A stretch of DNA of 64,000 nucleotides from a virus. This document shows positions 29 to 47,790 of the stretch, one piece after another; within the stretch, counting starts at the first letter, position 1; each line of letters begins with the position of its first letter. The stretch is taken from positions 62,001 to 126,000 of IMG/VR virus record IMGVR_UViG_3300027770_000027; one strand, 5' to 3'. A program made the position numbers and the translations under genes. Below the pieces are notes generated by a model. It searched no databases. It was not told where the DNA came from and was given only the letters and a program-made list of their open reading frames with translations.

Positions 29-57
29 ATATTAACGGACGTTGGGGGGAACTGCAA
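29..57 (-). promoter_or_regulatory. leaderless-type promoter
   Basis: -35 TTGCAG, 17-nt spacer opening TTCCCC, -10 TAATAT, then 6 nt to the ATGATG at 22. Confidence 0.75.
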
Positions 58-60
58 GGA

Positions 61-333
61 CTACTTCCGAGCTCTGGCCTTCTTGAACTGAGCCCTCACC
101 TTTGCAAAGGTCTCGTCCTGCTCGGGCTCCGGGTAGAACCAGTTCCAGGTGTTGCGGACTCCCTTGACCAGGAGCTCGAGGAGGCACAGAGGGATGAGGA
201 TCGGGGAGAGCACCACGGTGAGCAGAGCGGTGACAACGATCGTGGTGATACAGGCGCTCGCTAGTGCGTTGATCGTGGACTGGTGGCGGAGGCGGAAAGC
301 GAAGGCTTCGGTGGGTGTCATGGTGTCTTTCAT
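61..333 (-). CDS. small membrane protein, unknown
   Basis: 90 residues. A hydrophobic region at about residues 24-57 could form one or two membrane helices, and the C-terminal third is charged and ends in a basic tail (KKARARK), likely cytoplasmic. The promoter region reads ACAAGATG where sister genes read ACATGATG, so only the second of the usual two ATGs exists and the mRNA leader would be about 3 nt. No family recognised. Confidence 0.75.
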   Translation of the reverse strand: MKDTMTPTEAFAFRLRHQSTINALASACITTIVVTALLTVVLSPILIPLCLLELLVKGVRNTWNWFYPEPEQDETFAKVRAQFKKARARK

Positions 334-342
334 CTTGTATAT

Positions 343-371
343 ATCTTAGGTGAGGAGAGGGGGAACCGCAC
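343..371 (-). promoter_or_regulatory. leaderless-type promoter
   Basis: -35 GTGCGG, 17-nt spacer opening TTCCCC, -10 TAAGAT, 9 nt to the ATG at 333. Confidence 0.75.
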
Positions 372-375
372 GGAC

Positions 376-468
376 TTAGTTGAGGTCGAAGAGGTAGATA
401 AAGGTCGCGCCGAGGCCTACGAGAAGGACGAAGTGAACTGTCACGGCTACTACTTGGAACGTTGTCAT
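376..468 (-). CDS. 30-residue membrane peptide
   Basis: Reads MTTFQVVAVTVHFVLLVGLG and then ATFIYLFDLN. Nearly the whole peptide is one membrane helix. It was found because a promoter with the standard spacing sits directly upstream, and its TAA ends just before the promoter of the next gene. Too short for family assignment. Confidence 0.65.
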   Translation of the reverse strand: MTTFQVVAVTVHFVLLVGLGATFIYLFDLN

Positions 469-475
469 TGTTAAG

Positions 476-504
476 ATATTAAAGGATGTACTGGGGAACC
501 TCAA
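476..504 (-). promoter_or_regulatory. leaderless-type promoter
   Basis: -35 TTGAGG, spacer 17 opening TTCCCC, -10 TAATAT, 7 nt to the ATG at 468. Confidence 0.75.
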
Positions 505-695
505 GCGAAGACTTCGTGGGCGATCCCGGACTCTGGCTGCTCGTAGGACTCGATGAAGAACCTCTTAGAGTCCTTCCGTTGCCAGATCCACTCCTCCGCG
601 GACTTCCGATCGAAGAAGACTCCGATGAACTCATTGCCGCCGTTGGAGAAGGCTCCGGCTTCCTTGAACACGATATGGACTTGGGTCTTGGTCAT
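501..695 (-). CDS. small protein of a local paralogous group
   Basis: 64 residues, soluble. A strand-rich start is followed by FIGVFFDRKSAEEWI. The pattern of strands and then an aromatic-x-[RK]-x-x-A helix recurs in the proteins at 734-898, 16880-17218 and 29361-29564, which are probably distant paralogs. The start ATG is 6 nt after a CATAAT -10 box. Function unknown. Confidence 0.7.
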   Translation of the reverse strand: MTKTQVHIVFKEAGAFSNGGNEFIGVFFDRKSAEEWIWQRKDSKRFFIESYEQPESGIAHEVFA

Positions 696-701
696 AGTTC
701 T

Positions 702-730
702 ATTATGGGTTAGGAACTGGGGAAGCTCAA
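702..730 (-). promoter_or_regulatory. leaderless-type promoter
   Basis: -35 TTGAGC, spacer 17 opening TTCCCC, -10 CATAAT, 6 nt to the ATG at 695. Confidence 0.75.
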
Positions 731-733
731 CGC

Positions 734-898
734 TTATCGTCCGAGAGCAGGCAGGGGCTTCTGAACAGTCACCCAGTGGAGGATCTCGGTCGGGACTCGG
801 AACACCTTAGCTGCCTGCTCTGCGTCCTCGCGCTTGGCGTAAGCTCCGAGGAAAGCCTGATTGTCTTCGCGAACGAGAATGTAAACGGTGTCTTTCAT
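734..898 (-). CDS. small protein of a local paralogous group
   Basis: 54 residues from MKDTVYILVRE. An in-frame ATG at 934 exists, but the residues it would add are the translated promoter, so I take the ATG 7 nt after the -10 box. The segment FLGAYAKREDAEQAA resembles that in 501-695. Function unknown. Confidence 0.7.
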   Translation of the reverse strand: MKDTVYILVREDNQAFLGAYAKREDAEQAAKVFRVPTEILHWVTVQKPLPALGR

Positions 899-905
899 TG
901 TTAAT

Positions 906-934
906 ATCTTAGTGGATCTAACGGGGAAGCTCAA
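906..934 (-). promoter_or_regulatory. leaderless-type promoter
   Basis: -35 TTGAGC, spacer 17 opening TTCCCC, -10 TAAGAT, 7 nt to the ATG at 898. Confidence 0.75.
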
Positions 935-1140: not shown

Positions 1141-1242
1141 TTAGAGGTTATGCTTAGCTGCTACGTAGGTCACGAAGACTGCGGCGACTCCGGTGAGAGC
1201 GACTCCGGTGAACATCAGGATGGGAAGGACTGTTTCAATCAT
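1141..1242 (-). CDS. 33-residue membrane peptide
   Basis: Starts MIETVLPILMFTGVALTGVA and continues AVFVTYVAAKHNL. It is one hydrophobic helix with a short polar tail. The start lies 6 nt after a TAAGAT -10 box, in the ATGATT variant of the double start. First gene of a pair with 931-1128. Confidence 0.65.
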   Translation of the reverse strand: MIETVLPILMFTGVALTGVAAVFVTYVAAKHNL

Positions 1243-1248
1243 GTAATA

Positions 1249-1277
1249 ATCTTAGCACATGACTGGGGGAACCTCCC
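1249..1277 (-). promoter_or_regulatory. leaderless-type promoter
   Basis: Weak -35 GGGAGG, spacer 17 opening TTCCCC, -10 TAAGAT, 6 nt to the ATG at 1242. Confidence 0.7.
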
Positions 1278-1554: not shown

Positions 1555-1731
1555 TTAGTGGCGGTTCCGGGGATTGATTCCCTTCCCGGCGTTCTCCTGC
1601 CGGTGGATGATGACCCCGGCGATCACGAAGAGGACAATCACAGGCCAGAAGTTCACGGCGAGCTTGAGGAAGACCTGGCCAATGAGGGAAAGCTTGTCTG
1701 TGAGGGTCATGTCGAAGTGTTCTTGAATCAT
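1555..1731 (-). CDS. 58-residue single-pass membrane protein
   Basis: Starts MIQEHFDMTLTDKLSLIGQV. A membrane helix spans about residues 28-43 (FWPVIVLFVIAGVII), followed by a basic tail. The ATG lies 6 nt after a CATAAT -10 box. Function unknown. Confidence 0.65.
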   Translation of the reverse strand: MIQEHFDMTLTDKLSLIGQVFLKLAVNFWPVIVLFVIAGVIIHRQENAGKGINPRNRH

Positions 1732-1737
1732 GTTTCT

Positions 1738-1766
1738 ATTATGGCTGGGAATGCTGGGAAGGGAAC
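1738..1766 (-). promoter_or_regulatory. leaderless-type promoter
   Basis: -35 GTTCCC (poor), spacer 17 opening TTCCCA, -10 CATAAT, 6 nt to the ATG at 1731. Confidence 0.6.
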
Positions 1767-1788: not shown

Positions 1789-1971
1789 CTACTTGCACAG
1801 GCAGTAGACTCCGAAGAGGGCCAGCCCTCCCACGATGAGGCCGTGGTTCCCCAGGAACGCGAGACATAGGGTTCCCAGGGCGGTTCCGGCCATCGCCATT
1901 CCTAGGAAGGCGGACGGGCATAGGAACCAGAGGGCTGCGAGAACGGCGAGGAACATCATTACTTTCATCAT
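1789..1971 (-). CDS. hydrophobic 60-residue membrane protein
   Basis: Almost entirely hydrophobic (VMMFLAVLAALWFLC, later GLIVGGLALFGVYC), predicted as two membrane helices with a short hairpin. The ATGATG start lies 6 nt after a TAAGAT box. No family recognised. Confidence 0.7.
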   Translation of the reverse strand: MMKVMMFLAVLAALWFLCPSAFLGMAMAGTALGTLCLAFLGNHGLIVGGLALFGVYCLCK

Positions 1972-1977
1972 GTATAT

Positions 1978-2006
1978 ATCTTACAGGACTTGAGGGGGAA
2001 GGGAAC
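1978..2006 (-). promoter_or_regulatory. leaderless-type promoter
   Basis: -35 GTTCCC (poor), spacer 17 opening TTCCCC, -10 TAAGAT, 6 nt to the ATGATG at 1971. Confidence 0.7.
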
Positions 2007-2071: not shown

Positions 2072-2719
2072 TTAGGCTTTGCGCCGGGGGCCTTTGGTTC
2101 CCTTCCGGGTATCCTCAGGCTTGCGCTTCATGTCCTTGGAGTTGCAGAGACAGAACTCAGACAGAGGACATTGGGAACAACCAGCGTCTAGGAAGATATC
2201 GGGGCGCTGGCAGACCCCACGCGTGAGTTCTTCCACGGCTTCTCTAGACTTGAAATCAATCTTAACACCCTTGGCATCAGGATTAAACTTTGGGAGCTCA
2301 GCACGGACCTTGTCTTTACGGTCCTCCATATCTTCTCGAGTAAGGTAGTCCTCCTTAACATTACTACCCACCGTGATATTATCCTCTTTGGCTTTACGGA
2401 CCTTCGGAACTTTAACTTGTTTCGCAGGAGTACTAGCCTTACGACAATCTCCACATACGAACTTAGTAAGAAGTAATTCAATGGTGTTATACTCCGGCTT
2501 AGCCAACTGGCGTTTCAGGTTATCCCCGAACATGGAGGTCTGCTTATTCTTACAGCAAGAGCAATTGATCTTCTGTACCGGGAGGCGATCATTCTCCTTA
2601 TAGAAGGCAACCCACTCCTTAAGGTTCTTGAACTGATCGCCTCCCGAGGCCTGCTTGATGGCCACCTTAGCGGCTTTGGCTGCTGCACCGAACTTCTTAC
2701 GATATACTTTCTTCATCAT
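2072..2719 (-). CDS. putative zinc-binding protein, unknown role
   Basis: 215 residues. There are two cysteine clusters: a CSCC at about residue 53 with a later CGDC, and a C-terminal set CQRPD, GCSQC and FCLC, plausible metal sites. The N-terminus is basic (MMKKVYRKKFG) and the middle is lysine-rich, consistent with nucleic-acid binding. The ATGATG start follows the promoter directly. It looks like a phage regulatory or late-transcription accessory protein, but I cannot name the family. Confidence 0.75.
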   Translation of the reverse strand: MMKKVYRKKFGAAAKAAKVAIKQASGGDQFKNLKEWVAFYKENDRLPVQKINCSCCKNKQTSMFGDNLKRQLAKPEYNTIELLLTKFVCGDCRKASTPAKQVKVPKVRKAKEDNITVGSNVKEDYLTREDMEDRKDKVRAELPKFNPDAKGVKIDFKSREAVEELTRGVCQRPDIFLDAGCSQCPLSEFCLCNSKDMKRKPEDTRKGTKGPRRKA

Positions 2720-2725
2720 GTAATA

Positions 2726-2754
2726 ATCTTAGCTGAAGTTGTGGGGAAGGGACC
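2726..2754 (-). promoter_or_regulatory. leaderless-type promoter
   Basis: -35 GGTCCC (poor), spacer TTCCCCACAACTTCAGC, -10 TAAGAT, 6 nt to the ATGATG at 2719. The spacer is identical to that of the next promoter (2998-3026). Confidence 0.75.
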
Positions 2755-2757: not shown

Positions 2758-2991
2758 TTACTTGCCGCAGTAGGCTTCGTCGTACACCGCGTTCATCTCC
2801 TGAGCCGCTTCGAGGCCTTCGCTATATCCTTTGTCTCGGCCAGCTTCAAAGGTCTTCTTCACCAGGGTGACCAGGGAACCGATGTACACGTCCCGGAAGT
2901 CCAGGCGATCCATATTACGGACCGCAATCGTTTCGATCTCGGTGTCGATGTGCTTCTGCAGGAGGGAAAGGATTTCGTCGTTCTTCATCAT
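2758..2991 (-). CDS. small helical protein, unknown
   Basis: 77 residues, acidic and helical. The segment FEAGRDKGYSEGLEAA resembles FEAGYQIGYDSGYD of the protein at 6686-6886, so the two may be paralogs. The ATGATG start is 6 nt after the -10 box. Confidence 0.7.
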   Translation of the reverse strand: MMKNDEILSLLQKHIDTEIETIAVRNMDRLDFRDVYIGSLVTLVKKTFEAGRDKGYSEGLEAAQEMNAVYDEAYCGK

Positions 2992-2997
2992 GTAATA

Positions 2998-3026
2998 ATC
3001 TTAGCTGAAGTTGTGGGGAAGCTCCC
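2998..3026 (-). promoter_or_regulatory. leaderless-type promoter
   Basis: -35 GGGAGC (poor), spacer TTCCCCACAACTTCAGC, -10 TAAGAT, 6 nt to the ATGATG at 2991. Confidence 0.75.
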
Positions 3027-3029: not shown

Positions 3030-3212
3030 TTATCGGCCGAGGTTGTTTAGCTTGCGAATGGCGGCGTGAACTGCCCTAAGCTGGTTTACCAGGGGGTCTC
3101 CCAGACCGACGAGGCCTCCGTCTAGGACGATCTCGTCGATCTGCTTGTTGATGTCCCTGGACCGGTCCTTAAGTGCCGCCAGGGTCTTTGCTCTCTTCAT
3201 CTTGCTCATCAT
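3030..3212 (-). CDS. small helical basic protein, unknown
   Basis: 60 residues from MMSKMKRAKTL. A longer in-frame ORF starts at 3269 but would translate the promoter itself, so the ATGATG is preferred. Helical and basic at the N-terminus. No family recognised. Confidence 0.7.
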   Translation of the reverse strand: MMSKMKRAKTLAALKDRSRDINKQIDEIVLDGGLVGLGDPLVNQLRAVHAAIRKLNNLGR

Positions 3213-3218
3213 GTAATA

Positions 3219-3247
3219 ATCATAGAGCAGAATATGGGGAAGCGCAA
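3219..3247 (-). promoter_or_regulatory. leaderless-type promoter
   Basis: -35 TTGCGC, spacer 17 opening TTCCCC, -10 TATGAT, 6 nt to the ATGATG at 3212. Confidence 0.75.
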
Positions 3248-4600: not shown

Positions 4601-4601
4601 A

Positions 4602-5788: not shown

Positions 5789-6016
5789 CTAGTCAACAAG
5801 ATCCACTTGAATGCTAATCCCGTTGAATGTGGCTCCGATTCCTTTGTATTGGAATCGATCATCTGCAATACACTTCAAGGCTTCTTCCACTGCTCCAGCC
5901 GTACGAAGATCAACCGTATCATGTAGTTTACTATACGTACAATTCACCATCATACGACCATCTACACCCCAGGTCCGAACGATCCGCAGCTTCTGTTTCG
6001 ATTTGATCTTCATCAT
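5789..6016 (-). CDS. small soluble protein, unknown
   Basis: 75 residues from MMKIKSKQKLRIVRTW. The longer ORF to 6052 is the translated promoter. Mixed strand and helix pattern, no recognised motif. First gene of a promoter-led unit continuing to 5012. Confidence 0.7.
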   Translation of the reverse strand: MMKIKSKQKLRIVRTWGVDGRMMVNCTYSKLHDTVDLRTAGAVEEALKCIADDRFQYKGIGATFNGISIQVDLVD

Positions 6017-6022
6017 GTATAT

Positions 6023-6051
6023 ATTATGTAGGAGGTTAGGGGGAAGGTCCA
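6023..6051 (-). promoter_or_regulatory. leaderless-type promoter overlapping the upstream gene
   Basis: -35 TGGACC, spacer 17 opening TTCCCC, -10 CATAAT, 6 nt to the ATGATG at 6016. The stop of gene 6036-6257 lies inside the spacer. Confidence 0.75.
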
Positions 6052-7150: not shown

Positions 7151-7477
7151 TTAGTGGTTCAATTCCAAGCTATCAACAACGTCTTGGATGGTTTCATAAT
7201 CTTCTTCGGAGATCTCATTCTTAAAATGGGTCTTAGCGATCTCTACCCAATTAACCGCATTGAGATAATCTCCAACAGCTTGATACGCCAAAGACCCCTG
7301 TTTAAGGTCTGCGAACTCCAACTCTTCCACTAGCTGCTCAAAGGCATCTGCCATATGCTCTACATCATCGAACTCCTGGTCTTCTGCCATTGACGCGAAG
7401 ATCTCCTCATACATGAGGTTGATGTTCCAGGTCTGCTTGTTCGTCCAGCCGTTGTATGTCGTATCGTTTCTCATCAT
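7151..7477 (-). CDS. NGWxNxxTWN-type phage protein
   Basis: 108 residues. The start MMRNDTTYNGWTNKQTWNIN carries the NGWxNxxTWN signature found at the N-terminus of a widespread uncharacterised phage and bacterial protein family. The remainder is acidic and helical. ATGATG start 6 nt after the -10. Molecular role unknown. Confidence 0.75.
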   Translation of the reverse strand: MMRNDTTYNGWTNKQTWNINLMYEEIFASMAEDQEFDDVEHMADAFEQLVEELEFADLKQGSLAYQAVGDYLNAVNWVEIAKTHFKNEISEEDYETIQDVVDSLELNH

Positions 7478-7483
7478 GTAAAT

Positions 7484-7512
7484 ATCTTATAGGAAGAAAG
7501 GGGGAACCACAC
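7484..7512 (-). promoter_or_regulatory. leaderless-type promoter
   Basis: -35 GTGTGG, spacer 17 opening TTCCCC, -10 TAAGAT, 6 nt to the ATGATG at 7477. Confidence 0.75.
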
Positions 7513-7974: not shown

Positions 7975-8340
7975 TTACCGCTCCATGGAAGACATGAAAC
8001 GATCTTCGAAATCATTCATGTAGAGGAACTCTGGGTCATTCACCGGAGCATCAAAGGTTGGTTCAAACTTCCCGGCACTTTCAGGAAACTTAGCTTCTCC
8101 TGCCACTTTCCCGTTAATCAAGATACGGACACAACGAAGCTCGTTCGGGTGGCAGACATATTGCCGGGAGTTATTAACAACCCAATCCATCTCCCGCTTG
8201 AGGTCTTGCAGAGCACTGGCTCGGGTCATTCCCACGACCGAATAGATCGTATTCCAATGAATTACTCCAGTATCAGTGAAGACCTGGATCTGAAGGCGAC
8301 CGACGACTGTTTCTTCTGCGAATGATTGTGTTTCCATCAT
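7975..8340 (-). CDS. soluble protein, unknown
   Basis: 121 residues from MMETQSFAEETVVGRLQIQV. Strand-rich middle, no recognised motif. It shares a nearly identical promoter with 8644-8904. Confidence 0.7.
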   Translation of the reverse strand: MMETQSFAEETVVGRLQIQVFTDTGVIHWNTIYSVVGMTRASALQDLKREMDWVVNNSRQYVCHPNELRCVRILINGKVAGEAKFPESAGKFEPTFDAPVNDPEFLYMNDFEDRFMSSMER

Positions 8341-8346
8341 GTATAT

Positions 8347-8375
8347 ATCTTAGACGAGGTTGTGGGGAACCGCAA
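8347..8375 (-). promoter_or_regulatory. leaderless-type promoter
   Basis: -35 TTGCGG, spacer TTCCCCACAACCTCGTC, -10 TAAGAT, 6 nt to the ATGATG at 8340. Same spacer as 8911-8939. Confidence 0.8.
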
Positions 8376-8382: not shown

Positions 8383-8601
8383 TTAAAGGACCACCTGCTC
8401 TGGCTCACTGGCCTGACACACTAGCTCGAGCACCTCCTCCATGTAGGAGACTCCTGCGGCGAAGTTCGCGCGGCCACGGTTGTCGGAGACGTACTGGAGG
8501 ATCACCTGGACTGCTTCAGCCACTGAGACGTGGTTGGCCTTGAGGATCTCTGCGGCGGCGGACTTGGCTGCTTCGGACTGGATGTATTCGTTCTTCATCA
8601 T
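8383..8601 (-). CDS. helical small protein, unknown
   Basis: 72 residues, alanine-rich helical (SEAAKSAAAEILKANHVSVA). No family recognised. ATGATG start. Confidence 0.7.
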   Translation of the reverse strand: MMKNEYIQSEAAKSAAAEILKANHVSVAEAVQVILQYVSDNRGRANFAAGVSYMEEVLELVCQASEPEQVVL

Positions 8602-8607
8602 GTTTAT

Positions 8608-8636
8608 ATCTTAGAGGAGGTAATGGGGAAACTCAA
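8608..8636 (-). promoter_or_regulatory. leaderless-type promoter
   Basis: -35 TTGAGT, spacer 17 opening TTCCCC, -10 TAAGAT, 6 nt to the ATGATG at 8601. Confidence 0.8.
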
Positions 8637-8643: not shown

Positions 8644-8904
8644 TTAGATGCCCTGGGCAAGTACGGCGTCCTCTGGGCTCTGCCAGTAGGTCTTCGAGAA
8701 GGTCACTATCCAGGTGTCTCTGTTCACTCGAAGGGCTTTGAACACCAGAGCATTGTCCTCATTGTCCAGCACCGTGATGGCATCCACTGAAGAGGGATGG
8801 AAGACGCGGACCTTGTTGACGATGTACTGGACGCGCTTGGCTTCCTTGGCGAGGACGTTGACTTGCTTCGTGCTGAGGACTCGTGTGTATGTGTTCTTCA
8901 TCAT
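8644..8904 (-). CDS. small soluble protein, unknown
   Basis: 86 residues from MMKNTYTRVLSTKQVNVLAK. A basic N-terminal helix is followed by strands; no motif recognised. Confidence 0.7.
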   Translation of the reverse strand: MMKNTYTRVLSTKQVNVLAKEAKRVQYIVNKVRVFHPSSVDAITVLDNEDNALVFKALRVNRDTWIVTFSKTYWQSPEDAVLAQGI

Positions 8905-8910
8905 GTATAT

Positions 8911-8939
8911 ATCTTAGACGAGGTTGTGGGGAAACGCAA
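8911..8939 (-). promoter_or_regulatory. leaderless-type promoter inside the upstream gene's 3' end
   Basis: -35 TTGCGT, spacer TTCCCCACAACCTCGTC, -10 TAAGAT, 6 nt to the ATGATG at 8904. The TAA of the -10 is the stop codon of gene 8914-9135. Confidence 0.8.
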
Positions 8940-9135
8940 GGGCTTCTGCCTTCTCAAGTGCTTCTTCTCCATCCATTCCCAGCTTCTCGATCTGCTCGAT
9001 CGTGGCGTTGGCTGCTTCACAAGCGGACCTGCGGAGCTTTGCGGCTTCATCCCCCCAAACACCGTCCAGGTCGAAAGCCTGTTGGAGTTGCAAGGTGAGC
9101 TGCTCAAGGAGAATGTCGATCGTGTTTTTCATCAT
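8914..9135 (-). CDS. helical small protein ending in promoter-encoded residues
   Basis: 73 residues, helical, with coiled-coil tendency. The C-terminal residues LAFPHNLV are encoded by the -35 and spacer of the next promoter, and its TAA stop is the first half of that promoter's TAAGAT box. Confidence 0.7.
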   Translation of the reverse strand: MMKNTIDILLEQLTLQLQQAFDLDGVWGDEAAKLRRSACEAANATIEQIEKLGMDGEEALEKAEALAFPHNLV

Positions 9136-9141
9136 GTAATA

Positions 9142-9170
9142 ATCTTAGTCGATCTTAGGGGGAACCGCAC
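9142..9170 (-). promoter_or_regulatory. leaderless-type promoter inside the upstream gene's 3' end
   Basis: -35 GTGCGG, spacer 17 opening TTCCCC, -10 TAAGAT, 6 nt to the ATGATG at 9135. The -10 TAA is the stop of gene 9145-9345. Confidence 0.8.
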
Positions 9171-9717: not shown

Positions 9718-9981
9718 TTACTTCTCTACAATAGTAACGATGCCTTCTAATACACCGTAAGTAGACTTCTCAGTATACTTGTAAGTGTCTGGTTGTTCTC
9801 CTTCTTTACGTACTCGTGTTAGAATCCAAAGGTCTGTTTGTTTCCAGGAGCAATTGATAAGCTTCTGATCCTTTTCAAGTTCTACGGTCATATTACCACC
9901 AACTGCTCGAGTAAAATAGTTACAGGAAGAAAGAGAAAGAATGGAAACAAGGCCGATTACTTTAAGAATGTTATTGATCAT
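9718..9981 (-). CDS. predicted phage lipoprotein
   Basis: 87 residues. The N-terminus MINNILKVIGLVSILSLSSC is a lipoprotein signal: a hydrophobic core and then the lipobox LSSC with the lipidated Cys at about residue 20. The mature part (about 67 residues) is strand-rich. A host-envelope lipoprotein made early after infection would suit superinfection exclusion (as shown for the Llp and Cor-type proteins of other phages), but the sequence does not prove that role. The start is 6 nt after a TATTAT -10 box. First gene of a three-gene unit with 9342 and 9145. Confidence 0.75.
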   Translation of the reverse strand: MINNILKVIGLVSILSLSSCNYFTRAVGGNMTVELEKDQKLINCSWKQTDLWILTRVRKEGEQPDTYKYTEKSTYGVLEGIVTIVEK

Positions 9982-9987
9982 ACGTTA

Positions 9988-10016
9988 ATAATACATGCTG
10001 TGATGGGGAAGAGCAA
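9988..10016 (-). promoter_or_regulatory. leaderless-type promoter
   Basis: -35 TTGCTC, spacer 17 opening TTCCCC, -10 TATTAT, 6 nt to the ATG at 9981. Confidence 0.75.
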
Positions 10017-10023: not shown

Positions 10024-10272
10024 TTAACGAGAAACTCGACTGGTCAATGCTGTCTCATACTTGAGAGCATTACGAACTTCTTCAGGAGTTCCCCCGGTTG
10101 TTGCCAGGGTAACCAAATGGCGTAGAGCTGAGGTAAGAACCCCAGTTGCATAGGGGTAATTGATTGCACCATCTCCTTTACGGCGAGCAGCGTCTTCTAC
10201 TTCATTCAGGTAGTTGCGAAGCAGTTCGTTGATCTCTGAGACGCTGACGGTGTTCTTCTTTCTTTTCATCAT
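10024..10272 (-). CDS. helical small protein, unknown
   Basis: 82 residues from MMKRKKNTVSVSEINELLRN. Basic start and helical body. No family recognised. Confidence 0.7.
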   Translation of the reverse strand: MMKRKKNTVSVSEINELLRNYLNEVEDAARRKGDGAINYPYATGVLTSALRHLVTLATTGGTPEEVRNALKYETALTSRVSR

Positions 10273-10278
10273 GTAATA

Positions 10279-10307
10279 ATCTTACATGATGATGGGGGGA
10301 ACGTCAC
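10279..10307 (-). promoter_or_regulatory. leaderless-type promoter
   Basis: -35 GTGACG, spacer TTCCCCCCATCATCATG, -10 TAAGAT, 6 nt to the ATGATG at 10272. It shares its spacer with 13889-13917. Confidence 0.75.
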
Positions 10308-12228: not shown

Positions 12229-12579
12229 CTACCAATTGATGTCTTTATTTTCAACAATGCCGACAGGAGAACCATCTGTACGAAAGATGACAATCCGGAA
12301 ATCTTCCTTAGCTTTGCTCCAAGCTTCTAATTGGTCAAACTCTTTATTACCAAACATCATCAACGTATGGCCCCGACGCAATTCAGCTCGAAAAGTACTC
12401 AAAGCTACTGAAGGAATATTAGATGACAAAGCTATAAGAGTCTTACCCAGATCAATAAGATCTTCTGCAAATTCAGAGACATCATTATCTCCTTGAGTGT
12501 CATTCAAGAAATCCATCATGGCTTCCTGATACCGTGTGATCATGTCTTCTGCGTTAGCAATCAATGTGTTCTTCATCAT
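12229..12579 (-). CDS. helical acidic protein, unknown
   Basis: 116 residues from MMKNTLIANAEDMITRYQEA. The first two thirds are helical, and a strand pair DFRIVIFRTDGSPVGIVENK closes the protein. Likely first gene of the unit 12229-11780. Confidence 0.7.
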   Translation of the reverse strand: MMKNTLIANAEDMITRYQEAMMDFLNDTQGDNDVSEFAEDLIDLGKTLIALSSNIPSVALSTFRAELRRGHTLMMFGNKEFDQLEAWSKAKEDFRIVIFRTDGSPVGIVENKDINW

Positions 12580-12585
12580 GTAAAT

Positions 12586-12614
12586 ATATTAGTTAAAGTT
12601 ATGGGGAACCTCAA
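12586..12614 (-). promoter_or_regulatory. leaderless-type promoter
   Basis: -35 TTGAGG, spacer 17 opening TTCCCC, -10 TAATAT, 6 nt to the ATGATG at 12579. Confidence 0.8.
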
Positions 12615-12617: not shown

Positions 12618-12938
12618 TTACTTGCAGAGAGCCTTGCGAATCGGATCTACTCCGGTCAGGCGAACCAACTGCCTCGCATACACCGGGACCTTCCTCATTA
12701 CGAGGGCTAGCTGCTTGGGAGTCAATCTCCCGTATTGCTGGAAGGCTTTGGCCATGCGAGTGAGGATGAAAGCATCACAGCAACGGAACCCCACTCCATT
12801 GTGCATCTCTGTGCGGTCCTTATCTTGCTCCTCATCAGTCTGCTCCTTGGCGATGCGGACCAAGGCTCGAACAGCCCATGCTTCATCGGTGGCGAGCTTG
12901 TTTTGGAGAGCGGCGATAACGTCTTCTTGTTTCATCAT
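12618..12938 (-). CDS. helical basic protein, unknown
   Basis: 106 residues from MMKQE. C-terminal KQLALVMRKVPVYARQLVRL is basic and helical; a CC pair sits mid-protein. DNA binding is possible but no recognised motif supports it. Confidence 0.7.
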   Translation of the reverse strand: MMKQEDVIAALQNKLATDEAWAVRALVRIAKEQTDEEQDKDRTEMHNGVGFRCCDAFILTRMAKAFQQYGRLTPKQLALVMRKVPVYARQLVRLTGVDPIRKALCK

Positions 12939-12944
12939 GTAAAT

Positions 12945-12973
12945 ATATTAGCAGAGGATGGAGGGAACCTCCC
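12945..12973 (-). promoter_or_regulatory. leaderless-type promoter
   Basis: -35 GGGAGG (poor), spacer 17 opening TTCCCT, -10 TAATAT, 6 nt to the ATGATG at 12938. Confidence 0.65.
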
Positions 12974-12976: not shown

Positions 12977-13441
12977 CTATTCCAGTGTCACGAGACCTGG
13001 AGCGATGCGATACACGATACAACCGAGGACTTCGGTTCCCTGCTTCCAATGAGCTTCACAGCGGTAAACTCCTTCTTCTACAAGCTTATTACAAAACACG
13101 GTAATCTCTAAATCACGACCGGTCTTAACCTTAAAAGCATAAGCTCCTTCACCAGGAGATTCTACTCGAACGATACGAGTACGAACCTTAAAGCCTGCAT
13201 GCTTCTGAGGAATGGGGTTGCCGTTGATCATCGTGGGCAGAGAAAACTTCCCGGGAGTATCATAGGTGACCACTCCACTCTGCTCGCCGCCTACAACAAC
13301 CTCCGGAATGTTATTGCGGTTGGAAGGCGTAAACAAAGTCCCTCGATCAGCATGTGCAAGAGCGTAGCTGAGGACATAGATCACGTTGCGGTTGTGCTGC
13401 TTCTGATTGTTCTGCGTAGGCTTGAAGGTGTTTCTCATCAT
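12977..13441 (-). CDS. strand-rich soluble protein, unknown
   Basis: 154 residues from MMRNTFKPTQNNQKQHNRNV. Mostly beta (KVRTRIVRVES, AFKVKTGRDLEITVF), with two cysteines near the end. No family recognised. Confidence 0.7.
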   Translation of the reverse strand: MMRNTFKPTQNNQKQHNRNVIYVLSYALAHADRGTLFTPSNRNNIPEVVVGGEQSGVVTYDTPGKFSLPTMINGNPIPQKHAGFKVRTRIVRVESPGEGAYAFKVKTGRDLEITVFCNKLVEEGVYRCEAHWKQGTEVLGCIVYRIAPGLVTLE

Positions 13442-13447
13442 GTAAAT

Positions 13448-13476
13448 ATCTTATCAGACCAAGTGGGGAACCTCAC
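13448..13476 (-). promoter_or_regulatory. leaderless-type promoter inside the upstream gene's 3' end
   Basis: -35 GTGAGG, spacer TTCCCCACTTGGTCTGA, -10 TAAGAT, 6 nt to the ATGATG at 13441. The last three spacer bases are the stop of gene 13454-13882. Confidence 0.8.
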
Positions 13477-13882: not shown

Positions 13883-13888
13883 GTAATA

Positions 13889-14673: not shown

Positions 14674-14677
14674 ATAT

Positions 14678-29320: not shown

Positions 29321-29329
29321 CGTGTAATA

Positions 29330-29995: not shown

Positions 29996-30001
29996 ACTTT
30001 A

Positions 30002-34591: not shown

Positions 34592-34855
34592 TTATAGTTC
34601 ATAGACAGCATTGCTGTCAGATTCTTCACAAAACTCAACAAATCGTTTAAAATCTTCAACTGCATCAAGAGTACTTTCAAATTGATCCCAATAGCTGACA
34701 CCGTCCTGGTGTTCCGCTTCTGTAATATACTCTGCCAATAGATCTTCTAGAGGTTCTTTCCAAGAGACAACAGTCATGGCTGCATCAATAAAAGAAGTCT
34801 TCAAAGGATGTTCAAGGGTGTTCATGTCGTGGTGATTAGGATTGGTGTTTTTCAT
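34592..34855 (-). CDS. acidic small protein, unknown
   Basis: 87 residues, acidic and helical, from MKNTNPNHHDMNTLEHPLKT. It sits inside the tRNA cluster with its own promoter, 7 nt from the -10 to the ATG. Confidence 0.65.
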   Translation of the reverse strand: MKNTNPNHHDMNTLEHPLKTSFIDAAMTVVSWKEPLEDLLAEYITEAEHQDGVSYWDQFESTLDAVEDFKRFVEFCEESDSNAVYEL

Positions 34856-34862
34856 TGTTTAT

Positions 34863-34891
34863 ATATTAGAGGTTTATTATGGGAAGGTCAC
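34863..34891 (-). promoter_or_regulatory. leaderless-type promoter
   Basis: -35 GTGACC, spacer 17 opening TTCCCA, -10 TAATAT, 7 nt to the ATG at 34855. Confidence 0.7.
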
Positions 34892-35081: not shown

Positions 35082-35110
35082 AGTATACCAGCAGTCATGG
35101 GGAACTGCTC
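35082..35110 (-). promoter_or_regulatory. TTCCCC promoter without an adjacent ATG
   Basis: -35 GAGCAG, spacer 17 opening TTCCCC, -10 TATACT; predicted start near 35075. Drives the hairpin leader and tRNA-Tyr rather than a protein. Confidence 0.65.
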
Positions 35111-35127: not shown

Positions 35128-35316
35128 CTACACGTTGCTGATTTCCAAATTAATTTCTTCATCACTTAGTCGGCAATAAAGAGTTTCACCTGTGTCTGGA
35201 CAAATTTGAATCTTTACAAAACCTTCAGCTACCATGTATTTCAGATTTCGCATAATTGCTTCGCGAAGATATTCTTTATATTCTTTGTCGGTCATCATCA
35301 TTTCATCGTCTTTCAT
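35128..35316 (-). CDS. small acidic protein, unknown
   Basis: 62 residues from MKDDEMMMTDKEYKEYLREA. The ORF to 35364 would translate the promoter. LRNYM/MVAEGF resembles LKNYLIAEGF of 45789-46007, so the two may be distant paralogs. Confidence 0.7.
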   Translation of the reverse strand: MKDDEMMMTDKEYKEYLREAIMRNLKYMVAEGFVKIQICPDTGETLYCRLSDEEINLEISNV

Positions 35317-35323
35317 TGTTAGA

Positions 35324-35352
35324 ATCTTAAAGGATCTTACCGGGAAAGGCAC
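35324..35352 (-). promoter_or_regulatory. leaderless-type promoter
   Basis: -35 GTGCCT, spacer 17 opening TTCCCG, -10 TAAGAT, 7 nt to the ATG at 35316. Confidence 0.7.
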
Positions 35353-36707: not shown

Positions 36708-37030
36708 AGGTGATTACCATTTTTAAGTTCTTCCAAATAACCACACAGGTGTAATACTTTATAGAAAGCTTTTTTATTATTTTGCTTCTTATTAAAACGG
36801 GCAGTATCTGGACAAATATGTTCAGCCATGGCTGTATGAGGGCCTCCTGCAAAAATACCCGCCGGAATAGTAACCTTGCACAAAGTAGAACCTCCTAGAT
36901 GAGACAATCTTTTAGATTGGTCCATGCGTTTTTGTCCAAATGGAGGTTCTACGTAACGACGCCAATGGCGAAAGGTGATCTTCCACCCGTGTTTCTTCAA
37001 GCTATTGTAGTCTAGTGGTTGCTTGCTCAT
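36704..37030 (-). CDS. basic soluble protein, unknown
   Basis: 108 residues. Basic (ITFRHWRRYVEPPFGQKRM), with KVTIPAGIFAGGPHTAMAEH and CPDTARFNKK, likely a small fold with nucleic-acid affinity. Own promoter; ATG 6 nt after TAATAT. Confidence 0.7.
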   Translation of the reverse strand: MSKQPLDYNSLKKHGWKITFRHWRRYVEPPFGQKRMDQSKRLSHLGGSTLCKVTIPAGIFAGGPHTAMAEHICPDTARFNKKQNNKKAFYKVLHLCGYLEELKNGNHL

Positions 37031-37036
37031 GATTTT

Positions 37037-37065
37037 ATATTAGGTAGAAATGATGGGAACTTCAA
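37037..37065 (-). promoter_or_regulatory. leaderless-type promoter
   Basis: -35 TTGAAG, spacer 17 opening TTCCCA, -10 TAATAT, 6 nt to the ATG at 37030. Confidence 0.75.
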
Positions 37066-39806: not shown

Positions 39807-40178
39807 TCACTTCTGTTTGTGATTTTTGTTTGTAGGGGTAATTCTAGACCTTGATTTTTGTTTGGGGTTTGATCTTTTTAAAGCAGCCGCTTTTTTAATT
39901 TCTTGAAATTGTTCCCATTGCCACCAGGATAACCAAAAAAACGTCAAAGACATACCCACATTCAATAAAATCTCTGTGATATTGGGAGTTGATATTGTTA
40001 ATACATTTGTAATGGCTCCACATGTAGTGACAGTTAAACCAAATTTAGCTAGATAGGCTTTAATTTTATTATCCCATATTTTATTATCCGGATCACCAAA
40101 AATATGAATAAGAAGTGCTAGAGAGGAAAATGCTATAGTACAATTGGAGATAATATTGATAATTGAGTATATAGACAT
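39807..40178 (-). CDS. three-helix membrane protein (holin-like topology)
   Basis: 123 residues with hydrophobic segments at about 5-27, 45-63 and 70-88 and a basic C-terminal tail. WDNKIKAYLAKFGLTVTTCG and the WWQWEQF stretch resemble uncharacterised phage membrane proteins. The tail charge and size fit a holin but do not prove it. CATAAATA precedes the start. Confidence 0.6.
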   Translation of the reverse strand: MSIYSIINIISNCTIAFSSLALLIHIFGDPDNKIWDNKIKAYLAKFGLTVTTCGAITNVLTISTPNITEILLNVGMSLTFFWLSWWQWEQFQEIKKAAALKRSNPKQKSRSRITPTNKNHKQK

Positions 40179-40183
40179 ATAAT

Positions 40184-40534
40184 TTATTTATGTCGACGGA
40201 CTCTTCTTGTCGGTTTTGTTACTGGTTTTGTTTCAGGTTCAAGAATATGGTCCGGTAATATTTTGCTGCTGAAATATTCTATACCTTTGAGCCCCAAAAA
40301 TCCTAATAAAAAAGCTATTCCATAATGATAATGGCTCTCATCTAACTTAGTTAAATTAATAACAATTGGTGTTATATAGTTAGCACTAGCTGCGCCTCCA
40401 ACTAAACAAGAAATGGTTCTAGTCAGATTCATGGCGGAACCTTTAGAGGTTAAAAGAATTGCTCCGAACAGACCACTGATCAACAATCCAATGTCTATAC
40501 CATATTCCTTCAAATTAACTTGTGGAGCCTCCAT
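40184..40534 (-). CDS. three-helix membrane protein (holin-like topology)
   Basis: 116 residues. Helices at about 14-32, 40-58 and 72-92, ending in a basic RRVRRHK tail. NYITPIVINL and GFLGLKGIEYF resemble phage holin-type proteins. Adjacent to a second protein of the same topology, suggesting a pair. Confidence 0.6.
   Translation of the reverse strand: MEAPQVNLKEYGIDIGLLISGLFGAILLTSKGSAMNLTRTISCLVGGAASANYITPIVINLTKLDESHYHYGIAFLLGFLGLKGIEYFSSKILPDHILEPETKPVTKPTRRVRRHK
40185..40192 (-). promoter_or_regulatory. T4-late-like motif CATAAATA
   Basis: 6 nt before the ATG at 40178, inside the end of 40184-40534. Confidence 0.35.
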
Positions 40535-42509: not shown

Positions 42510-43547
42510 TTAGTCTTTGTAATTTTGATTAATAATTTTTACACTTAACATCTTATTGAGAGTTTCGCTGTATCTCAAATCTCCATTTAAATTATAACCT
42601 CGAATAACAATACCTTCTGCGGGTTTACCATTTTTAACATAAGTCATTTCATTGGCCAGAGTTTGTAATTTTTCTAACGTCAAATTTGGGATTTCGCTTG
42701 CTGTAAAAGATTCTACAAATGGTACAGAAAGACACATATGTGAAAAATCTGATTTCATTACATCTTGAGCTTCTTTATATACTCCAGTTGACAAGTCTTT
42801 TACATTAAAATGAAAGAAAGAAAGCTGCTGAAGGCCAGCTGGATTTCCTTGAATACCTGGTCCACAAATTTCTCCCTGCACTGCGGTGCCTAGTGGTAGA
42901 TAACTTTCAATTTGATATTTCTTAGCCATTTGCCAGTAAACACTGTCTGGTGTCTCCCTTAGCTCTAAGTTACGAGAACATACTTTAAAGTTTCCTTCGT
43001 GATCTTTGATGTAAGTAACAGAAGTCCCATCCATCTTGAGGGTAACACGGACAAACGCAGATGCTTTTAATTCTTCCAATACTTTAATATTAGACAAAAG
43101 GTTGTCTTCATCTGTTCTGCTTATGAATTGAGTAGGAAAATTACCAGCTACTTCCCCTCGTAAATTAGCTGGGATGGGTTTTTCGTATTTGGTAATACCT
43201 AACATCCCTGCAATAGAGGTGTCTTCTTCTGGATCATCTGAATGGTCCCAGATTTCTTGAGCACTAATTAGAGATCTAGGAAAAATAAGTCCTTGAGAAA
43301 CCGTACCTCGAAGCTTAACGGTTTTTACTCGAATAGGTTTGGTAGGATCATTCTTATCCCACAGAAATTCATTCCATACTCTCGGCTGGAGTACGGTATC
43401 AATAGGTACAAAAATTACTCCATCTCCTACCTTATATTCTCCCTTTTTGATAACGCTCTGCCACCCCTGCACTCGAGCAATCTCAATACGGTCTGCTCCT
43501 TCGATAGGAAGGATTTCTGTGATGGTTTCATATGACGCAAGTTCCAT
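42510..43547 (-). CDS. RNA ligase, DRB0094 (Rnl5-like) family
   Basis: 345 residues. N-terminal OB-fold (1-110; GDGVIFVPIDTVL), motif I KMDG with catalytic Lys171, GEICGPGIQGNP, EGIVIRGYN (motif IV) and SVKIIN (motif V). Length and domain order match DRB0094-type RNA ligases, which seal nicks with 3'-OH/5'-PO4 RNA on either strand type. It starts from its own promoter: ATG 6 nt after TAATCT. Confidence 0.88.
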   Translation of the reverse strand: MELASYETITEILPIEGADRIEIARVQGWQSVIKKGEYKVGDGVIFVPIDTVLQPRVWNEFLWDKNDPTKPIRVKTVKLRGTVSQGLIFPRSLISAQEIWDHSDDPEEDTSIAGMLGITKYEKPIPANLRGEVAGNFPTQFISRTDEDNLLSNIKVLEELKASAFVRVTLKMDGTSVTYIKDHEGNFKVCSRNLELRETPDSVYWQMAKKYQIESYLPLGTAVQGEICGPGIQGNPAGLQQLSFFHFNVKDLSTGVYKEAQDVMKSDFSHMCLSVPFVESFTASEIPNLTLEKLQTLANEMTYVKNGKPAEGIVIRGYNLNGDLRYSETLNKMLSVKIINQNYKD

Positions 43548-43553
43548 GTTACA

Positions 43554-43582
43554 AGATTAATATGGATACCGGGGAAGGGCAA
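43554..43582 (-). promoter_or_regulatory. leaderless-type promoter
   Basis: -35 TTGCCC, spacer 17 opening TTCCCC, -10 TAATCT, 6 nt to the ATG at 43547. Confidence 0.8.
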
Positions 43583-44166: not shown

Positions 44167-44233
44167 GTTAATATTTAGGCAACATCGTAAGAATTTTCGT
44201 GAGGTTCCCTAAAAAAATTTTTAGTATGTATAT

Positions 44234-44581
44234 ATGAAAATAACAAAAGAATGGATTCGCAAATGGGGTCTAATAAGTGTTATAGCGGCTGGCAATTATT
44301 TTGCAGGGTCCTTGACCTACCACTTGGCTTACAAACGAGGATATGAGGAAGGATATCAACAAGCTCAACAAGAGTGGCGTCTGGCTTTAATAGACGCAGA
44401 TTTTGCAGAGTATGACAGGAGAACTGGTAATTGGAAATTTCGAAGTATGGAAGAAGTTCTGATGGTGGGTACCATCATGGGTCAAATGCCGATATCCGGC
44501 ATATTTCCAGAACCGCCGGTGGATAAAGAAGATGTCAAATTTGCTCTGAGAAAAGCTTCTTTAAAATCTAAAATTAGATAG
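44234..44581 (+). CDS. membrane-anchored protein, plus strand
   Basis: 115 residues. One helix at about 12-31 (LISVIAAGNYFAGSLTYHLA), then KRGYEEGYQQAQQEW and a soluble tail. The GYEEGYQQ motif resembles spanin- or stalk-like phage proteins. Convergent with 44574-44897 (8-nt overlap). No plus-strand promoter recognised. Confidence 0.6.
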   Translation: MKITKEWIRKWGLISVIAAGNYFAGSLTYHLAYKRGYEEGYQQAQQEWRLALIDADFAEYDRRTGNWKFRSMEEVLMVGTIMGQMPISGIFPEPPVDKEDVKFALRKASLKSKIR

Positions 44582-45361: not shown

Positions 45362-45792
45362 GCTCCTGGTTTATCATATTTTGTAGATAATACAAACACA
45401 AATCCTTTTCGTTCCATATCAAACTCTAAGACATATGTCTTAGAGTTTTTTCTTTCTAAAATAGCTCCAGCAAAATTACCTCCTTTGGCCAATACAAACC
45501 CAAAAGTAGTATCATCAACGTTATTAATTTTTCCGTATACTTTATAATGAGTATCTGCTTCTTCAATTTCTGTAATCATTCCATTATAACAAAATCCGTC
45601 TGTTCTATAAATTTTTATTAATTTGCCAATAGGAACTTTAATAACTTGTCCGGGAACTACTATTCCATTTTTATCGGTAAGATAGGTTTCTTCTTCTAAT
45701 TGAAGTTTAAATCCCGGAATGGTTTGTTTGTCTGTAGATAAACCAGCAAACAATAATTGAGGAATTAATAGCATTGATAATATATATTTCAT
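45358..45792 (-). CDS. predicted exported protein
   Basis: 144 residues. MKYILSMLLIPQLLFAGLST is a signal peptide with FAG at the likely cleavage site; the mature part is strand-rich. Convergent with 45128-45361, 4-nt overlap. Not a recognised family. Confidence 0.7.
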   Translation of the reverse strand: MKYILSMLLIPQLLFAGLSTDKQTIPGFKLQLEEETYLTDKNGIVVPGQVIKVPIGKLIKIYRTDGFCYNGMITEIEEADTHYKVYGKINNVDDTTFGFVLAKGGNFAGAILERKNSKTYVLEFDMERKGFVFVLSTKYDKPGA

Positions 45793-46007
45793 TTTTTCTT
45801 TCTCCTTTTTTTGGGATCTTCTAGTTGGGGTTTACAAACATATTCGTGTCCAAAATATGTTATACGAAAGGGTTCTTCGAAATTTTCAAAACCTTCAGCT
45901 ATTAAATAATTCTTAAGTCTGCTCACATGTTCTTGATATTCATCTGAAGTATAAAAATCATGATCAAATACTCCATTTGCATCTATAGGATCTACACGGA
46001 AATTCAT
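45789..46007 (-). CDS. small acidic-to-basic protein, unknown
   Basis: 72 residues from MNFRVDPIDANGVFDHDFY. LKNYLIAEGF resembles 35128-35316; ends in a basic DPKKRRKKK tail. ATGA coupling to the exported protein. Confidence 0.6.
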   Translation of the reverse strand: MNFRVDPIDANGVFDHDFYTSDEYQEHVSRLKNYLIAEGFENFEEPFRITYFGHEYVCKPQLEDPKKRRKKK

Positions 46008-46036
46008 GTAAAATAATTAGTCTCTTAAAAAGAAAA

Positions 46037-46061
46037 AGCCCCATCTTTTGAAGAAGGGGCT
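46037..46061 (-). terminator. intrinsic terminator after the Hsp20 gene
   Basis: AGCCCC / GGGGCT stem extended by TCTT / AAGA, then TTTTTCTTTTT on the minus strand. A second weak hairpin (GGATTC / GAATCC) lies at 46069-46088. Confidence 0.8.
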
Positions 46062-46120
46062 AAATCTTGGATTCGGCTACGTGAATCCGAAAAGGGATCT
46101 CTGGGACTCTTGTGTGTTGT

Positions 46121-46624
46121 TTAGTCTATCTGAATGGTTATATCTGTTGACTTTGGTAAAGAGACTGGAATAGTTACTTTAAGAAGTCCGTTGATAAATT
46201 TACTATGGATATTTTGTGCTTCTACTTTATCTGAGAGGGAGAATTCTAGTGTAGCTTTGCGAGCACTAATTCCACTTCGTAGATAAGATATAAAATGATC
46301 TTTGGGTGGAATTTCTTCCTGAGGATCTATATTAATGGTCAATCTATCTTCTTTGACCTTAATTTTAATATCTTGTTTATCTAAACCAGCAAGTGCTATG
46401 TGTACCTCATACTCATATACTTCATTAGTGTCGCAGGTTTTGCGAGATATGATGTCATATGGATAATGAACATTTGGAACATCAAAGGCTTTGGTCAGAC
46501 TCTTGTCAAAGTCTGCAAAGAATGTATTAAACCAATTATCGTTAAACAATGCAGGTAATTGATTGAAACCATGCAAAGTGTCCGTTAGGACCCTATTTGG
46601 GGTGTGTATTATTTTAGTTGTCAT
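46121..46624 (-). CDS. Hsp20 small heat-shock protein
   Basis: 167 residues. The alpha-crystallin domain spans about residues 48-155 with YEYEVHIALAGLDKQDIKIK, LTINID, the GISARKATLEFSLS strand and a late GLLKVTIPV; the tail ends ITIQID, a possible I-x-I anchor. Such holdase chaperones occur in T4-like cyanophages and jumbo phages. This is one of the few genes with a clear Shine-Dalgarno (AAGGAG 5 nt before ATG), in contrast to the leaderless units. Confidence 0.9.
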   Translation of the reverse strand: MTTKIIHTPNRVLTDTLHGFNQLPALFNDNWFNTFFADFDKSLTKAFDVPNVHYPYDIISRKTCDTNEVYEYEVHIALAGLDKQDIKIKVKEDRLTINIDPQEEIPPKDHFISYLRSGISARKATLEFSLSDKVEAQNIHSKFINGLLKVTIPVSLPKSTDITIQID

Positions 46625-46697
46625 ATTACTCCTTATTTCTAAGCAAGTTATGTTTTGATTCTAGTCCACAAGAGCCCCAGAATCAAAAATATTTACC

Positions 46698-46892
46698 CTA
46701 AGAAGCGATCAAATCAACAATTTCTGCTACACAATCGAGCATGGCTTGCTTGGCCTCTTTGACACACATAGATTCCCTCCAATACTTTTCACACATATCA
46801 TTGGGAATGTCTAGAGGTGTGAGTCCGTAGAGTTTCTTGCACTCTTTTAATACCATTTTTTCAAAATCCTCAAATTGAATATGGACACTCAT
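46698..46892 (-). CDS. helical small protein, unknown
   Basis: 64 residues from MSVHIQFEDFEKMVLKECKK. Helical with two Cys. Co-transcribed with the DUF932 gene 8 nt upstream. A TTTGATTCT / AGAATCAAA stem lies just after it. Confidence 0.6.
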   Translation of the reverse strand: MSVHIQFEDFEKMVLKECKKLYGLTPLDIPNDMCEKYWRESMCVKEAKQAMLDCVAEIVDLIAS

Positions 46893-46900
46893 AATTAGTT

Positions 46901-47755
46901 TTAATTGTTACCGATGAGAAGAGTTTTGCGAGGCCTGTCTTTCTTAGGAAAGAGAGCCCTTAAAGAAGAATCTAAATCTGTTCCTCCGTATGATAGGGCT
47001 TTATCAGCACCTGTCCAAAGTTCCTGATTGAACCTAGTATCGTCCTGGAATTGGGTAATTCCCTTGCCTAGAGAATTTCCACCACCACGAGACACATTTT
47101 CCTGAATGACGTTAAAGGTCTTCCATAAGTCATCTCCGGCGTCGAAATCACGGCGAGGTTTGAGAACTTCTTCAAAATCAAATTTCTTAGGCTGCATCAT
47201 GCGATAACGAAACCGAATGTAGTAGGCGTAACGAGCCAAAATTGTCTTTTCTTGTGGTGTCAAGATTCTATTCCTCATAGCATCAATTTTTGAAGTCATG
47301 GTAGAATAATCGGCAAAACTAGATTCCAACAAAGGAAGTAGGTCATCAAAATTACCTCCTTCTTTCTGACGATGTACCATCGGGCGAAGGTTGGAACAAA
47401 CTCCAGAAGGAGCAATGAGACCATTTTTGCAAACTAAACGAAAGAATCCCAAAGCCATAGAAAATTTCTTAGACAGGTTGTGACTATTTGAAATCAGTAC
47501 TTGAGGATATCCTTCAAGGGAAGAGATATCTTTATGCAACTGTGAAGTGTGGACTAGAGTCACTCGGTGTTGACCTGTGAGTCCTCCACGGTCCTGAGCT
47601 GCCTTATTAATTGCCCATCCATTTTCCAAGGCCTTGTCAATAATTTGACGAGTGGAGATGAAGGAGTAGCGAGCCGAAGCCTTTGCAGCTGGTGCGGTGG
47701 CGTTAATTGCAGGGCAACGGCTGATGGCTTGTTCGAGTGTCAGTGTTTCAATCAT
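46901..47755 (-). CDS. DUF932-family protein
   Basis: 284 residues. QHRVTLVHTSQ, VLISNSHN and FFRLVCKNGLIAPSG are the family signature; these phage and plasmid proteins are of unknown molecular role. C-terminal half helical, basic. Own promoter, ATGATT start. Confidence 0.8.
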   Translation of the reverse strand: MIETLTLEQAISRCPAINATAPAAKASARYSFISTRQIIDKALENGWAINKAAQDRGGLTGQHRVTLVHTSQLHKDISSLEGYPQVLISNSHNLSKKFSMALGFFRLVCKNGLIAPSGVCSNLRPMVHRQKEGGNFDDLLPLLESSFADYSTMTSKIDAMRNRILTPQEKTILARYAYYIRFRYRMMQPKKFDFEEVLKPRRDFDAGDDLWKTFNVIQENVSRGGGNSLGKGITQFQDDTRFNQELWTGADKALSYGGTDLDSSLRALFPKKDRPRKTLLIGNN

Positions 47756-47761
47756 GTATCT

Positions 47762-47790
47762 ATAGTAACCCCAGATGCGGGGAACCTCAA
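47762..47790 (-). promoter_or_regulatory. leaderless-type promoter
   Basis: -35 TTGAGG, spacer TTCCCCGCATCTGGGGT, -10 TACTAT, 6 nt to the ATG at 47755. Confidence 0.75.

Follow-up and report, generated by a model that had tools for sequence, protein, structure and literature searches.

How does a ribosome find the start of a gene whose promoter ends only a few nucleotides before the start codon? This question is raised by a 64,000-nt stretch of viral DNA, here called the window, which comprises positions 62001-126000 of an uncultured phage genome totaling 227,352 bp (IMG/VR virus record IMGVR_UViG_3300027770_000027). An initial annotation of the window described a genome-scale array of promoters that would make leaderless mRNAs. 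We consider it very probable that these elements are real sigma70-type promoters whose -10 box lies 6 nt before the start codon, and that the mRNAs made from them, and from a second, late class of promoters, would be leaderless. This reading draws on a sharp spacing specific to start codons, on several orthologues, on the lack of Shine-Dalgarno (SD) sequences, and on the presence of the second promoter class.

Promoters were scored with a position weight matrix (PWM) of 29 nt that runs from the -35 to the -10 element, holds no start-codon information, and was built from 36 seed sites; sites of at least 15 bits were termed strong. The window contains 39 strong sites and one of 12.5 bits, and 39 of these 40 promoters are on the minus strand, with a single example (44199) on the plus strand. 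For 38 promoters, an open reading frame (ORF) begins 5-9 nt past the -10 box; the distance is exactly 6 nt for 30, and 19 start with ATGATG. These spacing and start counts match the hand counts of the initial annotation. The two remaining sites (33862 and 35110) have no ORF and are located upstream of tRNA genes.

The consensus layout is TTGMSS, TTCCCC, 11 nt, TAAGAT, 6 nt, and ATG. The initial annotation measured the 17-nt gap from TTCCC(C) to the -10 box, but the gap actually runs from TTGMSS, and TTCCCC opens this 17-nt spacer, lying inside it 12 nt from the -10 box. Read literally, TTCCC followed by 17 nt and TAAGAT occurs at just two exact sites, one of them near a start, and has the order of elements wrong. 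The commonest -10 boxes are TAAGAT (22), TAATAT (9), and TATTAT (4), and the commonest discriminators are TATTAC (11) and ATATAC (9). The TTCCCC element probably belongs to an extended -35 region or forms an activator box.

A background scan, already suggested in the initial annotation as the way to obtain a chance expectation, revealed 48 strong sites in the whole 227-kb genome versus about one under a first-order Markov null, an excess that arises partly by construction because the matrix was seeded with 36 of the same sites, although the start codon lies outside it. ATG is found at offset 6 in 34 of the 48 (binomial P = 3e-48), and an ORF starts 5-9 nt downstream from 44, so the motif is not equally frequent away from starts. 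Strong sites also occur outside the window, at 21-62 kb and 216.8 kb of the genome. Thus, the array is real but is not limited to the window. In this phage, TANNAT stands 6 nt before starts in 24 cases versus 2.4 expected.

Alternatively, the motif might have no promoter function and be a cassette linked to translation or bound by a protein, spreading together with small ORFs; several near-identical copies are indeed present in a GC-richer cassette region. This explanation is highly improbable given the consensus -35/17/-10 organization, the recurrence of this geometry in relatives whose spacer sequence is unrelated, and orthologues that retain the -10 box despite a diverged spacer. Moreover, the same element stands before tRNAs, where nothing is translated, which shows that it is a promoter rather than a translation signal.

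If these are promoters, their transcripts would appear to lack any ribosome-binding site. Boxes in the leaderless position precede about 94 of the 272 called genes (46 sigma70-like and 48 late-type), and an SD core is present in 0 of these 94. Genome-wide, SD-like cores are at background (2.7-4% vs. 6%), and this weakens an earlier suggestion that the clear SD of an Hsp20 gene demonstrates the coexistence of both modes of initiation. Among the other genes that have a same-strand neighbor, 94 of 148 are within 10 nt of it, a close packing that is as expected for translational coupling. RNA folding of five presumably leaderless 5' regions yielded weak structure that was indistinguishable from that of shuffled sequences.

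It is also conceivable that the ATG beside the -10 box is not the true start, and that real starts lie downstream behind ordinary SD sequences. Gene starts were taken from a simple caller that accepts the first ATG, and ORFs of only 28-33 codons occur. Against this, the promoter-linked ORFs are in frame from the adjoining ATG and have a median of 89 codons, similarity extends from residue 1 in most of the orthologues found, and SD is at background genome-wide. The chance that this alternative is correct appears minute.

The second promoter class strengthens the case for start codons fused to promoters. TAAATA or TAAGTA (TAARTA) ends 5-6 nt before ATG at 34 genes, whereas 1.6 would be expected, and these late-type boxes precede structural and other genes. 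The phage carries both a TATAAATA-like late box and a homologue of the T4 late sigma factor gp55, which may recognize it. The late box of T4 precedes the transcription start by about one helical turn (PMC2988020). Later in infection, gp55-directed polymerase acting at the TAAATA boxes would therefore generate late mRNAs with leaders of approximately 0-1 nt.

To place these observations in context, one script was run on the window's phage, on four relatives (G009, G010, G007, and G004), and on controls. In all four relatives, SD sequences are at or near background, the -10 peak is at 6 nt (weakest in G004 and G009), and TAARTA peaks at 5-8 nt. A farther group, represented by pooled contigs with 46-50% portal identity, retains the peak of late boxes (at 5-6 nt in 95 of 452 genes) and has SD at 16% vs. 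a 7% background, with some members using SD. In seven other T4-superfamily phages, SD frequencies exceed each phage's own background (T4 56%, Mosig 63%, HTVC008M 47%, S-CREM1 48%, Cr30 41%, Mel-JY01 32%, and P-HM2 24%), and such promoter peaks are absent. The Thermus phage phiYS40, used as a positive control over its first 50 kb, displays a TANNNT peak at 6 nt (8 vs. 1.2), and so the measure picks up a known leaderless case.

Among relatives that have few TTCCC promoters or none, a TTG -35 element at 16-18 nt is far commoner for -10 boxes at 6 nt than for those elsewhere (for example, it accompanies 14 of the 24 boxes at 6 nt in G009 and 18 of the 27 in G007). A strict scan of IMG/VR for the promoter pattern matched only two contigs, and the TTCCC array is rare in more distant relatives. 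Thus, the conserved trait is the spacing and not the array. Of 46 promoter-linked ORFs (33 sites surveyed under the window, with 6 overlapping sites counted under locus L006), 15 had identifiable orthologues, and often the spacing is kept while the spacer sequence has changed. For example, a 70%-identical orthologue of the KaiC-like gene (L016) keeps the -10 box, the 6 nt, and ATGATG. The distance is 6 nt in three phages for an RNA ligase and in two for DUF932, 7 nt in three for an 87-aa gene, and 6-7 nt in three for a helicase.

Several observations weigh against a uniformly leaderless arrangement. Some genes (e.g., genome 47446 and 87799) lack the geometry at the aligned start in a relative, site 48354 is 20 nt and site 55619 is 13 nt from its ORF, and some called starts may be wrong because the caller takes the first ATG. 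In addition, the TAARTA peak in pooled relatives has a shoulder at 7-16 nt, and so some late mRNAs would carry short leaders. This shoulder, together with an A/T-rich composition upstream of genes, fits another possibility, in which the promoters are real but the transcripts have short leaders (several nucleotides, or other upstream starts) and are translated independently of SD through S1 or AU-rich sequences, like genes of bacteria in which SD is seldom used. A weak hint of a host in the Bacteroidota, a phylum in which many genes have no ribosome-binding site (PMC4535381), points the same way. We judge this possibility to be unlikely, since the spacing peaks sharply at precisely 6 nt and is kept in orthologues, which fits a transcription start at the AUG, and since the early-type promoters resemble TTG(A)-17-TATAAT.

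The preferred reading, in which the mRNAs are leaderless, can be outlined as follows. With sigma70-type geometry, a -10 box 6 nt away places +1 on the A of ATG, and transcription would start at the AUG itself or no more than about 1-3 nt from it. Start variants such as AAGATG, ACGATG, and AATG would leave leaders of 1-3 nt. Ribosomes would dock directly on the AUG at the 5' terminus, ATGATG may offer them another start codon in frame there, and downstream genes of an operon could be reached via translational coupling. The array probably drives its many short ORFs in a manner resembling the early or host-takeover region of T4. The layout appears to be a property of the phage lineage and most likely suits a host that can do without SD pairing. 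More broadly, it seems somewhat favored that an uncultured T4-superfamily lineage has largely given up SD initiation by fusing host-sigma and gp55 promoters to start codons, with most or all transcripts leaderless from early to late infection, the host probably having ribosomes that work independently of SD. The layout is more widespread than the initial annotation proposed, and instead of forming one regulon it extends across the phage and its lineage.

Judged from its gene content, the phage is a large, divergent, uncultured member of the T4 superfamily. It encodes the T4-type portal gp20 that marks this superfamily (PF07230, E = 1e-97), gp32 (PF08804, 3e-17), a gp43-type DNA polymerase (phrog_262, 6e-184), the gp55-like late sigma (genome 192634-192879, 5e-16), a RecA/UvsX-like protein, a DnaB-type helicase, and a tail sheath stabilizer. 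The nearest cultured phages share only about 30% identity in polymerase and portal. A first portal search of IMG/VR, whose records are metagenomic, returned 23 contigs of at least 60% identity, and a clade profile returned at least 543, the relatives' contigs being partial. In a portal tree, where T4 and Cr30 form long branches, a fully supported branch separates the clade from T4, Mosig, HTVC008M, Cr30, and S-CREM1.

The leaderless state is deduced from promoter spacing. As to the host, a search of GTDB genomes with a single portal protein as query gave no match. The clade profile gave one, a 17.8-kb contig of a relative (L082) in the Chitinophagaceae metagenome-assembled genome Umea1_bin-0343. 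This contig is the only host hint and a weak one, as it may reflect a binning error. A host in the Chitinophagaceae, and thus in the Bacteroidota, is also at odds with promoters of the TTG(A)/TATAAT-like type, from which Bacteroidota promoters differ. No phage-coded IF3 C-terminal or S1 domain was found in five clade phages. An S21 homologue is present in one of the five, the relative G009 (21101-21226; L048), and the search for one in the window's phage was negative.

Leaderless transcription has precedents. At the lambda cI gene, transcription from PRM starts at the AUG, but this is a single gene, compared with roughly one-third of all called genes here. The initial annotation judged unusualness against lambda cI alone, and thereby overstated novelty because phages with many leaderless mRNAs are already known. 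Most middle and late mRNAs of phiYS40 are reported to have no leader (PMC3594737). That phage resembles the present one in its many leaderless mRNAs and its TANNNT peak at 6 nt. It differs in infecting Thermus, in retaining SD before about 30% of the genes in the part analyzed, and in lacking T4-late boxes next to ATG, whereas in the window's phage SD is at background and a T4-late class also abuts ATG. The leaderless program of phiYS40 reportedly accompanies a shift in host initiation factors, with IF2 up and IF3 down. In Deinococcus-Thermus, TANNNT a few base pairs before an ORF yields leaderless mRNA (PMC12340547), but that is a bacterial mode affecting about a third of genes and not a phage array with a well-conserved -35/TTCCCC element. 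Authors working on phage AR9 described phage transcripts in general as "often leaderless" (PMC5312081). T4 late promoters, which depend on gp55, gp33, and gp45, share the TAAATA-type boxes and a gp55-like sigma, but in T4 these boxes peak 27-28 nt before ATG and SD cores reach 56% in the stretch examined, whereas in the present phage just 5-6 nt separate them from ATG.

Given phiYS40 and the Deinococcus-Thermus geometry, a leaderless layout is not unprecedented. What appears to be new is an uncultured T4-superfamily lineage arranged in this way, with T4-late promoters apparently moved onto start codons. In the open-access literature, to which the search was confined, no account of transcription in this lineage was found, nor any description of a T4-superfamily lineage with both sigma70-type and gp55-type promoters on start codons and SD gone. 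If correct, the textbook T4 transcription program can work without ribosome-binding sites, and hosts with unusual translation initiation are indicated. The approximately 90 promoters in one phage, and many more in relatives, would then form a natural set for the study of leaderless mRNA selection and translation, and gene callers guided by SD may assign wrong starts to genes of these phages.

Table 1. Early-type promoters and late-type boxes in window coordinates. Distances run from the -10 (or late) box to the ORF start, and scores are PWM bits.
Coordinates	Strand	Feature	Start	Distance (nt)	Bits	Remarks
22..57	-	Promoter	ATGATG	6	34.1	TTGCAG-17-TAATAT
333..371	-	Promoter	AAGATG variant	9	36.6	GTGCGG-17-TAAGAT
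468..504	-	Promoter	start codon	7	32.7	
695..730	-	Promoter	ATG	6	17.1	-10 CATAAT
898..934	-	Promoter	ATG	7	32.6	
1242..1277	-	Promoter	ATG	6	31.6	
1731..1766	-	Promoter	ATG	6	12.5	Weaker copy, -10 CATAAT
1971..2006	-	Promoter	ATGATG	6	26.5	
2719..2754	-	Promoter	ATGATG	6	34.2	215-aa ORF
2991..3026	-	Promoter	ATGATG	6	39.4	
3212..3247	-	Promoter	ATGATG	6	31.3	
6016..6051	-	Promoter	ATGATG	6	20.3	-10 CATAAT
7477..7512	-	Promoter	ATGATG	6	31.5	
8340..8375	-	Promoter	ATGATG	6	39.3	121-aa ORF
8601..8636	-	Promoter	ATGATG	6	34.1	
8904..8939	-	Promoter	ATGATG	6	36.4	
9135..9170	-	Promoter	ATGATG	6	36.1	
9981..10016	-	Promoter	ATG	6	27.2	
10272..10307	-	Promoter	ATGATG	6	37.9	
12579..12614	-	Promoter	ATGATG	6	31.9	
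12938..12973	-	Promoter	ATGATG	6	32.3	
13441..13476	-	Promoter	ATGATG	6	31.5	
13882..13917	-	Promoter	ATGATG	6	33.8	
14671..14684	-	Late-type box TAAATA	ATG	5		
25078..25113	-	Promoter	ATG	6	16.1	
25764..25799	-	Promoter	ATG	6	34.1	215-aa ORF
26548..26583	-	Promoter	ATG	6	36.0	
27863..27897	-	Promoter	ATGATG	5	30.6	L013 orthologue keeps promoter and ATGATG
29195..29230	-	Promoter	ATGATG	6	29.3	KaiC-like 303-aa ORF
29320..29358	-	Promoter	ACGATG variant	9	29.2	ORF of 28 codons
29706..29744	-	Promoter	AAGATG variant	9	39.6	
29995..30030	-	Promoter	ATG	6	33.5	
31137..31172	-	Promoter	ATGATG	6	23.8	
33834..33862	-	Promoter			24.3	Before tRNA gene, no ORF
34855..34891	-	Promoter	ATG	7	23.1	7 nt kept in two orthologues
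35082..35110	-	Promoter			17.9	Upstream of tRNA cluster, no ORF
35316..35352	-	Promoter	ATG	7	27.7	
37030..37065	-	Promoter	ATG	6	19.0	
40176..40190	-	Late-type box TAAATA	ATG	6		
43547..43582	-	Promoter	ATG	6	15.8	RNA ligase gene; 6 nt kept in two orthologues
44199..44236	+	Promoter	ATG	6	16.9	
47755..47790	-	Promoter	ATG	6	27.3	DUF932 gene; spacing kept in L058
47970..47983	-	Late-type box TAAATA	ATG	5		
49088..49102	+	Late (T4-type) box TAAATA	ATG	6		566-aa gene

Two of the promoters listed in Table 1, at 2720-3030 of the window, are 272 nt apart and have TTCCCCACAACTTCAGCTAAGATTATTACATGATGAAGAA identical in both, which suggests that cassettes of a promoter plus a start codon duplicate or recombine. 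They are located in a GC-rich island (window 1-4000; genome 60-66 kb) with a GC content of about 52%, compared with 35-38% elsewhere. The island is packed with small ORFs, each preceded by its own similar promoter, and most of these ORFs were missed by a codon model trained on the remaining genome. It may consist of recently acquired or shuffled cassettes.

Positions 31821-34506 of the window hold 11-12 tRNA genes, including tRNA-Ile(TAT), and early-type promoters precede parts of this cluster. Two unlike RNA ligase genes, T4 Rnl1-like and PHA02142-type, are found nearby (37962-39074 and 42510-43547), a pairing beside tRNA genes that is as expected for tRNA repair. Elsewhere in the genome (174.6-176 kb; L009:9600-10983), a glutamine amidotransferase-like gene adjoins a QueC-like gene of the 7-deazaguanine pathway, and this pair possibly serves in DNA or tRNA modification.

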